The notes under the pieces were generated by a model that saw nothing but the letters and a program-made list of their open reading frames with translations, had not been told where the DNA came from and ran no database searches. Of a stretch of DNA of 64,000 nucleotides, positions 4,605-39,696 are shown one piece after another. Source of the DNA: a virus. A program made the position numbers and the translations under genes. The stretch's first letter is position 1, and each line of letters opens with the position of its first letter. The stretch lies in IMG/VR virus record IMGVR_UViG_3300030419_005367, positions 1 through 64,000 of that record. One strand, given 5' to 3'.

Positions 4605-5135
4605 ATGATATTAGGATTAGATATTTCCACCTCCATTGTGGGTGCCACTGTTTTGACCGATTTTGGTGAAGTCATTTATTGTGAGTCGTGGGATTTGAGA
4701 AACAAGAACAAGTTTCCGACTTTATTCAGCAAAGCCCAAGAGGTCAAGCATATGCTAGCTGGATTGTATGATGTTAAGAGACTTGCGTTTGATAAAGTTT
4801 ATATTGAACAATCATTGCAAGCCTTTCGCCCCGGATTCTCATCTGCAAGAACAATCTTGACACTATCACAGTTTAATGGTATAGTATCTTATATTATTCA
4901 AAGAGACTTTGAAATAGTACCAGAATATATCGGAGCATCTACAGCAAGAAAGGCTTGCGGCATCAAGGTTCAGAAGGGCCAGAAGGCAAAAGAAGTTGTT
5001 TTGAATTTTTTACTTGACAACGAGGATTCTTTTAGTATAGAATATACAAAGCACGGTAATCCTGTACCGGGATCTTATGATCGTGCAGATTCTTATATTA
5101 TAGCGAAAGCTGGATGGAAAAACTTAAACTCATAA
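4605..5135 (+). CDS. RuvC-like Holliday junction resolvase
   Basis: A 176-residue protein with the RNase H-fold RuvC pattern: D6 in GLDISTS, E68 in VYIEQS, and the late acidic pair D159/D162 in SYDRADSYIIA. The family cleaves DNA junctions with two metal ions. In a phage it would resolve branched replicative DNA before packaging. The start is fixed because catalytic D6 lies right behind ATG 4605. There is no Shine-Dalgarno sequence, and a TATAAT box ends 7 bases before the ATG. The gene overlaps the primase by 22 bases. Confidence 0.85.
   Translation: MILGLDISTSIVGATVLTDFGEVIYCESWDLRNKNKFPTLFSKAQEVKHMLAGLYDVKRLAFDKVYIEQSLQAFRPGFSSARTILTLSQFNGIVSYIIQRDFEIVPEYIGASTARKACGIKVQKGQKAKEVVLNFLLDNEDSFSIEYTKHGNPVPGSYDRADSYIIAKAGWKNLNS
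4857..4885 (+). promoter_or_regulatory. Intragenic sigma-70-like promoter TTGACA-17-TATAGT
   Basis: A perfect -35 at 4857-4862, a 17-base spacer and TATAGT at 4880-4885, inside the resolvase gene. It would drive the primase and the Mre11-Rad50 fusion gene. Confidence 0.5.
5014..5043 (+). promoter_or_regulatory. Second intragenic sigma-70-like promoter
   Basis: TTGACA is at 5014-5019, with TAGAAT at 5038-5043 (18-base spacer) or TATAGA at 5036-5041 (16). It lies about 70 bases before the primase start. Confidence 0.4.
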
Positions 5136-34636: not shown

Positions 34637-37600
34637 ATGGCTGAAAAAAAGTTTAAGTTTGTTTCACCGGGGATCTTCCTCAGCGAAGTTGATAATTCAC
34701 AAAACCCTAGCGCGGGAGATGCCCCCGGACCAGTGCTCATCGGTAGATTTGAGCGCGGCCCCGGCATGCGCCCAACAATAGTAAATTCCTTCTCCGAGTT
34801 TGTAGAGATCTTCGGAAATCCAATCTCAGGTAAAGGAACAACAGACGGCGACGTCTGGAGAAATGGTAACTACCTTGCTCCTACATACGCCGCATACGCC
34901 GCTCAGGCTTGGTTAAGAAACAACCCTTCTTGTACCGTTATTCGTCTTCTCGGAACAGAAGATCCCAACGCATCCGCGGGTGGCACAGACGGCCCTGCCG
35001 GAACCGGCGGAAAGGCTGGTTGGGATATGGGCGAGGTTGGTTCTAGTGCACCAGATGGTGCATACGGACTTTTCGTATTCCCAAAATTCGACACCCTTTC
35101 CACAACAGCCGCCACTCCACACACTGGAACATTGGCAGCTATCTTTTATGTCAACCATGCCTCTACGACATTGGCGCTCACGGGTACAGCAAGAGTCACA
35201 TCAGGAAAGGTGCCTGCAATGTTCCCAACAGCTTCGCACGGTGCACTTCTTGTTACTTCTAGTGCAAATGCAAGTGGACAGTTTACGATGGTTGTTGGAA
35301 CTCAGGCTGAGATCGCAACTGCAAACAGCGTTGGCGCAAAGAAGATCGAGTTCAACTTTAACGAGAATTCAGAGAAGTTCATTAGAAAGGTGTTTAATAC
35401 AAACCCTGCAAAGGTTAACTCTAATGCCTACTCAACCACAGAAGCTTATTTCTTAGGCGAAACCTTTGAAAGACAACTTCTCGACCAACAGCGCGGTGGC
35501 GCAGGCCAACACGGTGGTGCTGGAGCAGCAGTTAATGGTTATGGCGTAGGTGAGGCCGGAACAGGCTTGTCAACACTTAATAACATTGGTGCAGCAACAA
35601 TGCTTCCTTTGAAATCTGTTGGCGGCGGCTATGACTGGGCAAACCACAAACGCCCGATGCAGGCAGGCCGCACAGGCTGGTTTGTAGCTCAGCACCAAGG
35701 TGCAGCGGGAACGTTCAACGCACATCAGCTTCAAAAGTTATTTAGATTACACTCATTGGAGCCGGGAGAGTGGACACAAAGAAATCTTAAGGTATCCATT
35801 CAAGATATTACACCTCCAAAGTCAGCAGCACTGGGAGTACCCCAGTTCTCAACATTTACAGTTGTGATCAGAAAGATCGACGACAGCGATGCTTCTCCTC
35901 AACTTGTTGAGCGCTTCAGCGGATGTGATCTTAATCCAAATTCTGCAAACTATATTTGTAGAAAGATTGGTGATAAGTATGTCGAGTGGGATAATACAAA
36001 AAGATCTTACAGAGAGTACGGAACTTATAATAATATGTCAAAGTTCATTTCTGTTGAGGTCAATGAGGTTGTTTCCAACGGAGACGCAGCAAATCTTATG
36101 CCTATGGGTATGTATGGTCCTCCACGTCCTAAAAAGGTCGCTATCGGAACAGGAAGAAACATTGGTTCTGAGTCATGGGTTTTACACAGTACGGGCTCTT
36201 TCTTGCCAACGCACTTCGAGGGCACCATGAGCCCTGCTGCAATTGCAACCGGTGGTGGACTGTTCCAACTTGGTCTTACGGGTGCCTTGATTTGGCCACA
36301 GCCAATTCTCCGTCACTCGAACACAGAGGACAACCTTCCAAAGAAAAATTCAGCATATTTCGGTATGTCGACTTCTAAATCTGGTTCTGGAGTGTTCGCT
36401 CCGAGCACAGTGGATGTTTTGAGAGCGCTTCCTTCTGGTATTGGTACCTTTAACAGCGACTCTTCAAGAATTGTAACTGAGGGCGCAACATACGTTGAGC
36501 CATCTTTCATTTTCACGCTTGATAATCTGTCTGCTTCCGCAGATGGTTCCGGAGATGTTAAATACGTTTCTGGCTCTCGCTTGGCTGGTACTTCGTTGAC
36601 AGCTTTGAGTGGAACAAATGCCGTGCTTACCGGTAGTAGCTTTGGCCACAATCGATTCACGACTCTTTTCCACGGCGGATTTGACGGTCTGGATGTTACA
36701 GAGAAAGATCCATTCAGAAATACAAGATTGGACGACTCTTCTGATGCTAAACTCAATTACACCCTCTTCTCAACTCTTAGAGCTATCGATACAGCAAGAG
36801 ATCCAGAGTTTGTTGAGTGTAACTTGATGGCAATGCCCGGTATTACAAATACTAGCGTTACAGATCATATGATTGATGTTTGCGAAGAAAGAGCAGATGC
36901 TCTCGCAATTATCGACTTGGAAGATGACTACATTCCAGCACACGAAAGTACAGCTACAGAGGCCAACCGTAAACCGGATGTCGATACAGCAGTACAAAAA
37001 CTCAAGAATCGTCAAATTAACTCAAGTTATGGTGCAGCGTATTATCCGTTTGTACAGATTAGAGATTCGTTGGCTAACCAATTACTGTTCGTACCACCTT
37101 CAGTAGTAGGCTTGGGTACTCTCTCATACAGCGAATCAGTTCGCGACGTATGGTTTGCACCTGCCGGCTTTACTCGCGGTGGTCTTAGCGACGGCAAGAT
37201 CGGTTTCCCAGTTGTTGGTGTAAAACATCAATTAACCTCCGAAGAGAGAGATAAGCTTTATGAAGTAAACGTTAATCCAATCGCTTCTTTCCCTGCAGAG
37301 GGTATCGTGGTCTTCGGCCAAAAGACGCTTCAGGTAACGGAGTCCGCTCTTAATCGAATTAATGTCCGCAGACTTTTGATCTTCCTTAAGAGAGAGATCT
37401 CTAGAGTTGCAGCAACCACATTGTTCGAGCAGAATGTAAGAGCAACATGGAACGGCTTCTCCGCTCGCGTTGAGAGCATTTTGAATGACGTTAAGTCTCG
37501 CTTGGGCTTGGCCGACTTTAAGGTTGTGTTGGATGAATCAACCACCACACCAGATCTGGTAGACAGAAACATTATGTACGCAAAAGTGTTCTTGAAACCA

Positions 37601-37669
37601 GTGCAAGCAATTGAATTTATCGCACTTGATTTTGTAATCACAGATTCCGGGGCTTCATTCGCAGATTAA
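34637..37669 (+). CDS. Contractile tail sheath protein (gp18-like)
   Basis: A 1010-residue sheath subunit. The N-terminus KFVSPGIFLSEVDNS and PVLIGRFERGPGMRPTIVN and the C-terminal INVRRLLIFLKREISRVAAT ... AKVFLKPVQAIEFIALDFVI are classic sheath regions. The core is interrupted by a long variable part (~110-700), making it far larger than T4 gp18 (659). The sheath contracts to drive the tube through the envelope. AAGGAGA at 34620-34626 sets the start. Confidence 0.95.
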   Translation: MAEKKFKFVSPGIFLSEVDNSQNPSAGDAPGPVLIGRFERGPGMRPTIVNSFSEFVEIFGNPISGKGTTDGDVWRNGNYLAPTYAAYAAQAWLRNNPSCTVIRLLGTEDPNASAGGTDGPAGTGGKAGWDMGEVGSSAPDGAYGLFVFPKFDTLSTTAATPHTGTLAAIFYVNHASTTLALTGTARVTSGKVPAMFPTASHGALLVTSSANASGQFTMVVGTQAEIATANSVGAKKIEFNFNENSEKFIRKVFNTNPAKVNSNAYSTTEAYFLGETFERQLLDQQRGGAGQHGGAGAAVNGYGVGEAGTGLSTLNNIGAATMLPLKSVGGGYDWANHKRPMQAGRTGWFVAQHQGAAGTFNAHQLQKLFRLHSLEPGEWTQRNLKVSIQDITPPKSAALGVPQFSTFTVVIRKIDDSDASPQLVERFSGCDLNPNSANYICRKIGDKYVEWDNTKRSYREYGTYNNMSKFISVEVNEVVSNGDAANLMPMGMYGPPRPKKVAIGTGRNIGSESWVLHSTGSFLPTHFEGTMSPAAIATGGGLFQLGLTGALIWPQPILRHSNTEDNLPKKNSAYFGMSTSKSGSGVFAPSTVDVLRALPSGIGTFNSDSSRIVTEGATYVEPSFIFTLDNLSASADGSGDVKYVSGSRLAGTSLTALSGTNAVLTGSSFGHNRFTTLFHGGFDGLDVTEKDPFRNTRLDDSSDAKLNYTLFSTLRAIDTARDPEFVECNLMAMPGITNTSVTDHMIDVCEERADALAIIDLEDDYIPAHESTATEANRKPDVDTAVQKLKNRQINSSYGAAYYPFVQIRDSLANQLLFVPPSVVGLGTLSYSESVRDVWFAPAGFTRGGLSDGKIGFPVVGVKHQLTSEERDKLYEVNVNPIASFPAEGIVVFGQKTLQVTESALNRINVRRLLIFLKREISRVAATTLFEQNVRATWNGFSARVESILNDVKSRLGLADFKVVLDESTTTPDLVDRNIMYAKVFLKPVQAIEFIALDFVITDSGASFAD

Positions 37670-37723: not shown

Positions 37724-38275
37724 ATGGGCAGTGATCAATTCTGGAATTCAACAAGCATCGAGCCAAAGCGTCAGCATAAGTGGCTTGTGTACTTGCATAA
37801 TTCAAACATTCCATCTTATGTTGCAAGAAAGGTAGATAAGCCAAGCTTTTCCATCAACGAGCAACAGCATAAATATTTTGGACATACTTTTAAGTATCCC
37901 GGACAAGTAACATGGGATGATATCACTATGACCCTTGTTGATCCAATCGACCCAAATGTAAGCGACAAGCTTCAGGAGGTTTTGATTAACTCTGGATATC
38001 GCACTCCAGATAACCGCACGAACAACGCTCTCTATACTGTCTCTAAAGACTCTTCTGTAAAGGCTCTAGGCCCTATTGTACGAATTGAGCAGTATGGCAC
38101 GCAACCCGGTCTTGGCGCAGCTTCCGGCGAGCCTTATCTTATTGAGGCGTGGCAAGTCTTCAATCCTTGGATTAAAGACGTAAAGTTTGGTGAGTTAACC
38201 TATGAAGATGACGGAATTGTCACTGTAGACTTAACAATTGCTTTCGATTGGGCTAAACTAGTAGACGTCAAATAA
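37724..38275 (+). CDS. Tail tube protein (gp19-like)
   Basis: A 183-residue protein with the gp19 pattern: KHKW-type start (RQHKWLVYLHNSNIPSYVAR), KPSFSINEQQHKYFGHTFKY, GQVTWDDITMTLVDPID and a final VDLTIAFDWAKLV. It forms the inner tube through which DNA passes. Length is close to T4 gp19 (163). It follows the sheath gene and has its own late box, suited to the high copy number. Confidence 0.93.
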   Translation: MGSDQFWNSTSIEPKRQHKWLVYLHNSNIPSYVARKVDKPSFSINEQQHKYFGHTFKYPGQVTWDDITMTLVDPIDPNVSDKLQEVLINSGYRTPDNRTNNALYTVSKDSSVKALGPIVRIEQYGTQPGLGAASGEPYLIEAWQVFNPWIKDVKFGELTYEDDGIVTVDLTIAFDWAKLVDVK

Positions 38276-38290
38276 AAACTGAGGTGAAAA

Positions 38291-39133
38291 ATGGCTAGAA
38301 ATAACGAGGACCGCTTGGGTACACCCGCCCCGGCTCCGTCAAGCGTTATGGAAACTTCGAACAACACTGCAGGAGATCAAATGTTTTCTTTTGTTACTCC
38401 CACTGAGTTTGTCGAACTTCCTTCAAAGGGTAAGTTTTATCCGGAGGGACATGCTCTGCGTAATGTAGAGACAATCGAAATCCGATATATGACAGCTAAG
38501 GATGAAGATACTTTAACTTCTCCCGCTCTGTTAAAAAAAGGAATCGCAATTGAAAGACTTTTAAAGAATGTTATTGTCGATAAAAGTATTAATACTGATG
38601 ATCTTTTAGTGGGAGATAAGAATGCAATCTTGGTTGCAACTAGAATCTCTGGTTATGGGCCGGCTTACACAGCAAAGATTTCGTGTCCAACTTGTGCTGC
38701 TACATCTGATTATACTTTCGATTTAAGCGATGTCGATCAGAGCATTCCAGATGAACTAGAAATAGATGAAAATGGGCTCTTTTATATTAAGTTGCCCAAA
38801 ATGGATGTTATGGTTGGCCTGAGTCTTATGACAGGTGCTGATGAAAAGCGTCTAACAAAGTTGTCAGAGAACAGAAAGAAAAAGAACCTTCCAGAGGCGA
38901 CACTAACCGATCAATTTAGAATGATCATTCGGTCAGTTAACGGCAGTCAAAACAATGAGCATATTAATGCTTTAATTGACAATATGCCAGCAACAGATTC
39001 CCGATATCTGCGAACTGCATACGCAGAATTATCTCCAAATGTGAACTTAGCTCAGGACTTTGAGTGTCCAGAGTGCAGTGTGCAGGAGGAGGTCACAATT
39101 CCGTTTACGACGGAGTTTTTTTGGCCTAAATGA
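38291..39133 (+). CDS. Tail-assembly chaperone/baseplate hub protein (gp26-like)
   Basis: A 280-residue protein with the gp26-family N-terminus (FVELPSKGKFYPEGHAL and EIRYMTAKDEDTLTSPALLKKG) and two Cys pairs (SCPTCAAT near 130 and CPECSVQ near 259) that could form a zinc site. In T4, gp26 is assigned to baseplate hub assembly. A T7 run near the stop, and an overlapping +1-frame reading frame before the tape-measure gene, suggest it is also the first part of a frameshifted chaperone pair, as in lambda G/GT. Confidence 0.75.
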   Translation: MARNNEDRLGTPAPAPSSVMETSNNTAGDQMFSFVTPTEFVELPSKGKFYPEGHALRNVETIEIRYMTAKDEDTLTSPALLKKGIAIERLLKNVIVDKSINTDDLLVGDKNAILVATRISGYGPAYTAKISCPTCAATSDYTFDLSDVDQSIPDELEIDENGLFYIKLPKMDVMVGLSLMTGADEKRLTKLSENRKKKNLPEATLTDQFRMIIRSVNGSQNNEHINALIDNMPATDSRYLRTAYAELSPNVNLAQDFECPECSVQEEVTIPFTTEFFWPK

Positions 39134-39305
39134 AGAATACGCTAAAAGCCTATACGAACAGTTTTTCTTCCTGAAATATCACGGTGGCTGGAGCTTTGCA
39201 GAAGCGTATAGTCTACCTGTTAGGTTGAGGAATTGGTTTGCCGAAAGACTTGTTACTCAGATCGAGAAAGAGAACGAAGCTATAAAGAATGTGAAACATA
39301 GATAA
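39060..39305 (+). CDS. Frameshift-dependent C-terminal extension of the tail chaperone
   Basis: The frame is +1 relative to the gp26-like gene. Only the part after about 39117 looks like real protein: FFGLNEEYAKSLYEQFFFLK, then GGWSFAEAYSLPVRLRNWFAERL. The N-terminal TTG start at 39060 gives an Arg/Ser-rich sequence unlike a protein start, and no good initiation codon precedes the conserved part. I infer it is made as a fusion to the gp26-like protein by +1 (or -2) slippage at 39116-39122. T4 gp51 is a possible positional analogue. Confidence 0.6.
   Translation: MSVQSAVCRRRSQFRLRRSFFGLNEEYAKSLYEQFFFLKYHGGWSFAEAYSLPVRLRNWFAERLVTQIEKENEAIKNVKHR
39116..39122 (+). promoter_or_regulatory. Candidate programmed frameshift site TTTTTTT
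   Basis: Seven T in codons GAG-TTT-TTT-TGG, 9 bases before the zero-frame stop TGA (39131-39133). A +1 or -2 slip yields EFFGLNEEYAK. A strong Shine-Dalgarno-like AGGAGGAGG lies 23 bases upstream at 39084-39092 and might act as a stimulator. Confidence 0.5.
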
Positions 39306-39351: not shown

Positions 39352-39696
39352 ATGCAGAACATTAATGAAGAAGAATTAGATCAAATTATTGATTTGGGAA
39401 TTAACCGCAAAGGCGAACTCAACGAGAGCGCCTTAAGAATGTTGGGTGCTAGAATCAAGCTTGCTCTAGAGAGAATGTTTACGCCTATCACCGCCGGAGT
39501 TTCAAAGTTAAAAGTTAGAGGAAGCCGAAAAGAAATCAACTCCTTCTTCTCGGCATTAAAGTCCGAAAAGAAATTTATGGACGCTTATACAAAGTACGGG
39601 CTGGACGACCCTAGGACAGTAAAGAATGCTGCCTCTCTCCGCCGTGCGACATCTGGATTTGAACGTGCTACTGGGATCAAATGGCCTTTTAAATAA
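39352..39696 (+). CDS. Small protein before the tape measure, unknown
   Basis: A 114-residue helical, basic protein starting MQNINEEELDQIIDLGINRKG, with MLGARIKLALERMFTP and TSGFERATGIKWPF at the end. It lies between the chaperone pair and the tape-measure gene. GAGAGAG near 39337-39343 is a weak ribosome site. A tape-measure partner is possible from position only. Confidence 0.7.
   Translation: MQNINEEELDQIIDLGINRKGELNESALRMLGARIKLALERMFTPITAGVSKLKVRGSRKEINSFFSALKSEKKFMDAYTKYGLDDPRTVKNAASLRRATSGFERATGIKWPFK

Follow-up and report, generated by a model that had tools for sequence, protein, structure and literature searches.

An uncultured virus with a T4-like contractile tail very probably makes its tail assembly chaperone in a short and a long form by programmed +1 ribosomal frameshifting. 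The gene lies in the window, that is, the whole stretch of 64,000 nucleotides that was analysed (positions 1 to 64,000 of IMG/VR record IMGVR_UViG_3300030419_005367). Comparison with related sequences points strongly to the fusion of two reading frames, the position of their junction, the +1 direction of the shift, and homology with gp26 and gp51 of T4. Most described chaperone frameshifts are −1, and a +1 site in a chaperone gene is therefore unusual. Systems of this type have been described before; what appears to be new, in the literature consulted, is the prfB-type +1 site, together with the changes of direction described below. A T run that had been noted tentatively can now be defined clearly as a +1 recoding site, of which hundreds of variants occur in nature.

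The features of the locus are listed in Table 1. The gp26-like protein scores 65.1 bits against PF12322 (cut-off 24.5). Its gene ends with ACG GAG TTT TTT TGG CCT AAA TGA, and the stop codon, from 39131, starts 9 bases past the last T of the T7 run, as the initial annotation had noticed. In the +1 frame the run is followed by GLNEEYAKSLYEQFFFLKYHGGWSFAEAYSLPVRLRNWFAERLVTQIEKENEAIKNVKHR, 60 residues (39123-39302) that stay open to the TAA. No ATG, GTG, or TTG occurs in this frame past the T7 run; its sole mechanical start is TTG 39060, within the gp26-like gene, which bears out the earlier remark that the frame has no proper start of its own. The predicted long form has the junction ...TTEFF/GLNEEYAK, and the predicted junction peptide is EFFGLNEEYAK for a +1 shift and EFFFGLNEEYAK for a −2 shift.

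Table 1. Coordinates of the features at the chaperone locus and of its neighbours in the window.
Feature	Position	Strand	Remarks
Tail sheath protein, upstream	34637..37669	+	phrog_23, E=2.6e-66
Tail tube protein, upstream	37724..38275	+	phrog_4542, E=3.3e-23
Short form (TAC-N, lambda gpG-like), gp26-like, 280 aa	38291..39133	+	PF12322 T4_baseplate, E=9.5e-18; phrog_150 baseplate hub, E=4e-21
Predicted long form (TAC-NC, lambda gpGT-like), 337 aa	38291..39305	+	Translation with TGGC as one step
SD-like element AGGAGGAGG	39084..39092	+	Ends 26 nt before the slip codon
Shine-Dalgarno-like GGAG, possible stimulator	39112..39115	+	Ends 3 nt before the slip codon (prfB spacing)
T7 run / slip site TTT_TTT_TGG	39116..39122	+	Variants across 241 loci
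C-domain (TAC-C, lambda gpT-like), predicted to be accessible only via the +1 shift	39123..39305	+	TAA 39303-39305; conserved in +1 relatives
Tape measure protein, 730 aa	39709..41901	+	phrog_167 tail length tape measure, E=7.3e-10

The tape measure protein is the likely client of the chaperones. The pair had been placed immediately upstream of its gene; it does lie upstream, but an ORF of 114 codons (39352-39696), with no significant Pfam or PHROGs family match, stands between the C-domain and the tape measure gene. At all 111 testable loci, an ORF of 350 aa or more follows the chaperone within 1.5 kb. The 64,000-nt window holds no tRNA genes able to bias the shift, and the record, which may be a fragment, contains no second gp26/gp51 paralogue. 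The tail sheath protein (34637-37669) is 1010 aa long, about twice the length of the matched phrog_23 profile, which suggests that it carries a large inserted region.

Synthesis of both proteins, the ratio between them, the mechanism at the P site, and their role in assembly are inferred as follows. Most ribosomes would read the gp26-like gene to the TGA at 39131, yielding the 280-residue short chaperone. At the slip site, UUU (39119-39121) would occupy the P site with UGG waiting in the A site, and in a fraction of ribosomes the tRNA-Phe would re-pair one base 3′, on UUU (39120-39122). Translation would then continue with GGC CUA AAU and the following codons to the TAA at 39303, giving the 337-residue long form. 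Together the two forms would act as a G/GT (TAC-N/TAC-NC) pair, coating the tape measure protein and recruiting tail tube subunits. As in lambda gpG/gpGT, a short form would be accompanied by a rarer, C-terminally extended form through a frameshift just before the tape measure gene; lambda shifts −1 whereas the window is predicted to shift +1, and the phage of the window is contractile-tailed.

The frameshift could be real and its products could nevertheless serve baseplate hub assembly rather than the tape measure. PMC3004832 lists gp26 and gp51 of T4 as chaperones of hub assembly, and the annotation of the family is baseplate hub (phrog_150). The location before the tape measure gene, the two-form logic, and a modest match to the HK97 chaperone fold argue against this assignment; moreover, these roles overlap, because gp29, the tape measure of T4, also forms part of the hub (PMC3004832). 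We consider a dedicated hub function rather unlikely. The fold match comes from AlphaFold models, for which the short form and the C-domain were folded separately. The top VIA-align PDB match of the short-form model (pLDDT 85) was the HK97 tail assembly chaperone 2ob9, over 84 residues within residues 26-122, with Z 5.5, a range in which chance matches occur; the next match had 4.3, and Foldseek gave 2ob9 a probability of 0.60 and E 0.59. The next VIA-align matches were zinc-ribbon proteins, including NrdR and ZPR1, over residues 124-273. They fit the CPTC and CPEC motifs of the gp26-like protein (38291-39130), which in the model seem to be brought together as a split zinc ribbon. The C-domain model (pLDDT 89.9) consists of helices 4-21, 25-29, and 33-59. 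Sequence searches found no solved structure.

Relatives were collected by protein scans of viral contigs, which gave 80 window-like loci and 80 each with homologues from Microcystis phage, Flavobacterium phage, and cyanophage; the scan with SP-15 gp26 recovered SP-15 itself alone. Among 335 loci with a gp26-like match, the C-domain is in the +1 frame at 241, a slight undercount given that two further loci (L134 and L163) are also +1 on reading their sequences; in the cyanophage class it lies in the −1 frame. Conservation of the +1 reading on this scale goes well beyond chance. Positional entropy was determined for the clade of the window (50 loci, no pair above 85% nucleotide identity). Upstream of the run it was 0.84/0.56/1.36 at codon positions 1/2/3 of frame 0. 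Downstream it was 0.72/0.38/1.24 in frame +1, as against 1.19/0.72/0.38 in frame 0, so that the third-position peak lies in frame 0 before the run and, beginning with the codon directly behind it, in frame +1. In this clade the two +1 residues behind the run, Gly and Leu, show essentially no variation; the frame-0 residues after Trp vary (WPK, WPR, WTR, WPG, WPN, WVK). The entropy switch and the invariant Gly-Leu together indicate that the coding frame changes at the slip site itself.

The 241 +1 loci carry TTT_TTT_TGG at 185, TTT_CTT_TGG at 36, TTC_TTT_TGG at 4, and CTT_TTT_TGG at 3, so that YTT_TGG accounts for 228. The rest have YUU followed by U or C, with rarer variants such as TTT_TTT_TAC, CTT_TAC, TTT_CTA_T, and TTT_TTT_TTC, except for Listeria phage LIS04 (L085), whose TTT TTT AGT falls outside the YUU-Y pattern. 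Nearly all +1 sites can therefore be described as a P-site YUU followed by Y, at which 3′ re-pairing on UUU or UUC would be possible. In the clade of the window the slip codon is TTT at 49 of 50 loci and CTT at one. TTC, which makes up 31% of the Phe codons elsewhere in the same genes, is the slip codon at none of the counted loci. The A-site codon is UGG, apart from UAC at three loci (L165, L167, L213) and UUC at one (L349); a stop codon in the A site, as in prfB, is absent from the +1 sites.

These variants bear on the "+1/−2" shift of the initial annotation, of which the programmed shift and the +1 direction stand and the −2 does not. Taken by itself, the T7 run in the window is also compatible with a −2 ribosomal shift or with an indel from RNA polymerase slippage, both of which lead to a frame equal modulo 3. 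However, the relatives with TTT CTT TGG and TTC TTT TGG keep the +1 C-domain with runs of at most four T, on which −2 re-pairing fails, and the variants TTT CTA T and CTT TAC also exist. Because the former two sites bar both −2 re-pairing and slippage on a long T run, +1 is the sole mechanism common to the family, and we regard the −2 and slippage readings as very improbable. Relatives lacking an intact run refine, rather than refute, the earlier reading of the run as the slippery element.

Separate initiation of the downstream ORF, which had been named as the finding that would speak against frameshifting, is less probable still. Such a gene would have its own, possibly non-canonical, start, aided by the AGGAGG-like element that three clades carry 18-30 nt ahead of the slip codon, and in the window TTG 39060 is present. 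We searched the open +1 frame from the last upstream stop to 12 codons past the slip site; 31 of 135 non-redundant loci have no ATG, GTG, or TTG for the C-domain (8/50, 14/39, and 9/46 in the three +1 clades). In addition, the constraint upstream of the slip site is in frame 0, and the homologous C-terminal region of T4 gp51 is fused to the same N-domain. A sequencing error or a decayed gene, in which one former ORF lost a base, would leave just such a single-base shift in a homopolymer, but it is refuted by conservation, and its probability is negligible: hundreds of contigs share the arrangement, as do sequenced isolates, among them Microcystis phage Mel-JY01 and, with the site CTT_TGG, Flavobacterium phage immuto.

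The +1 sites resemble that of prfB (release factor 2, CUU_UGA). The prfB shift site is CUU_U, and only a small fraction of such genes have UUU_U (PMC5009743); the predicted P-site slip is of the same kind, and the window has a GGAG 3 nt upstream. They differ in that the A site of the window holds the sense codon UGG instead of the UGA stop and in that the window lacks autoregulation. Measured against synonymous resampling, the excess of pairing with the anti-SD that stops 3 nt short of the slip codon reached z −10.5 in the clade of the window, a value inflated, like the other SD-like z-values, because kinship among the sequences was uncontrolled. The window and most members of its clade have an SD-like element at this spacing; the excess is weaker in two other +1 clades, and the element is weak or absent in many relatives. 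An SD-like stimulator at the prfB spacing is thus possible, and convincing only for the clade of the window itself. By synonymous resampling, the AGGAGG-like element 18-30 nt upstream, located at 39084-39092 in the window, showed a stronger excess than the prfB spacing in all three +1 clades, and no start codon accounts for it. No conserved downstream RNA structure was detected: the mean z was about −0.2 in the clade of the window, and the other clades were not clearly above background. The −1 class of cyanophages has an SD-like GGAGG excess 9-12 nt (about 10) upstream of its slip site. We take this spacing to be close to that of dnaX.

T4 gp26 (207 aa) and gp51 (249 aa) both match PF12322, and the match in gp51 stops near residue 201, leaving a C-terminal extension. 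In profile comparisons, for which column-shuffled controls stayed below 1%, the cyanophage C-domain matched this extension with 97% probability and the window-type C-domain matched that of cyanophages with 75-94%; the direct comparison of window-type C-domain and gp51 gave 0.1-4%, which is not significant, and the route of homology is transitive via the cyanophages. T4 gp26 and gp51 are best read, on sequence grounds, as putative paralogues of the gene in the window, with the short form and the long form each encoded by a gene of its own. Genes 26 and 51 are separate and divergently transcribed, and in the tree they cluster together and adjoin the cyanophage clade (97/92, long branches). Taken with the paralogy, this suggests that T4 plausibly swapped frameshifting for gene duplication; where the window would shift frames, T4 has two divergent genes without frameshifting. 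A 2016 review named T4 as the exception to the rule of G-T frameshifting and considered HSTV-2 likely to shift +1 (PMC5009743). T4-like tail assembly chaperones were recognised by Vladimirov et al. 2022 (Virology 566:9), and the duplication reading agrees with that work as it is cited in PMC10885494 and PMC12846349; to the same extent, it supersedes the earlier statement that descriptions of a frameshifted pair in T4-like phages are uncommon.

In the cyanophage class the shift is −1 at U_UUU_UUC at 80 of 80 loci. Prochlorococcus phage Syn1 shares with the window the homologous N- and C-domains, the overlapping frames, and their location ahead of a long ORF, and differs in shifting −1. Its "gp51", annotated as 43 aa, is the 3′ part of the −1 frame entered at U_UUU_UUC. 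The jumbo phages Atu_ph07, MIJ3, XacN1, and RAS14 also have the C-domain in −1, and the −1 sites of cyanophages and jumbo phages have the form U UUU UUC/U. Pakpunavirus Adele and Andersonviridae resemble the window in having a myovirus tail chaperone with a poly-T slip, reported there as −1 at GTTTTT (PMC12846349).

An apparent change of direction can be followed in two contigs (L010 and L011, around 4830-4900) that have the C-domain in −1 and branch within the +1 clade (support 99/98). Their site, GAT TTT TTT, provides a U UUU UUU heptamer, and relative to L009 the linker after the T run is a net 7 nt longer; the alignment suggests that the flip to −1 arose by this linker indel. The gp26-like proteins of the two contigs are identical, and they may be one virus assembled twice. 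Across the tree, at least two to three direction changes are needed. On balance we favour the view that the gp26/gp51 family has conserved the frameshift product and not the route to it: prfB-type +1 shifting at YUU_UGG on sense codons in a large environmental clade, −1 shifting, a flip from +1 to −1, and duplication in T4; the distance of SD-like elements from the slip site would differ with the direction of the shift. T4 gp26 and gp51, long-standing assembly factors, would then belong to a family that reaches its two-form output by +1 shifting, −1 shifting, or duplication, and since the same output is reached by three routes, the need for two forms becomes testable.

The long form was missed in the deposited annotations that were checked, where the Syn1 "gp51", like several proteins labelled hypothetical, resembles a piece of the C-domain. 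The cyanophage gp51 annotated at 3756-3887 of L090 (NC_015288.1) resembles a −1 C-domain fragment rather than a separate protein. The C-domain of the window scores 23.7 bits against DUF6760 (PF20546), below the gathering cut-off of 27, and 18 of 39 members match DUF6760 at E<=0.01. A +1 frameshifted homologue with 47% identity was found on a 2.8 Mb MAG contig, a WOR-3 MAG chromosome (L344, CP070664.1), which we interpret as a provirus or a mis-binned phage.
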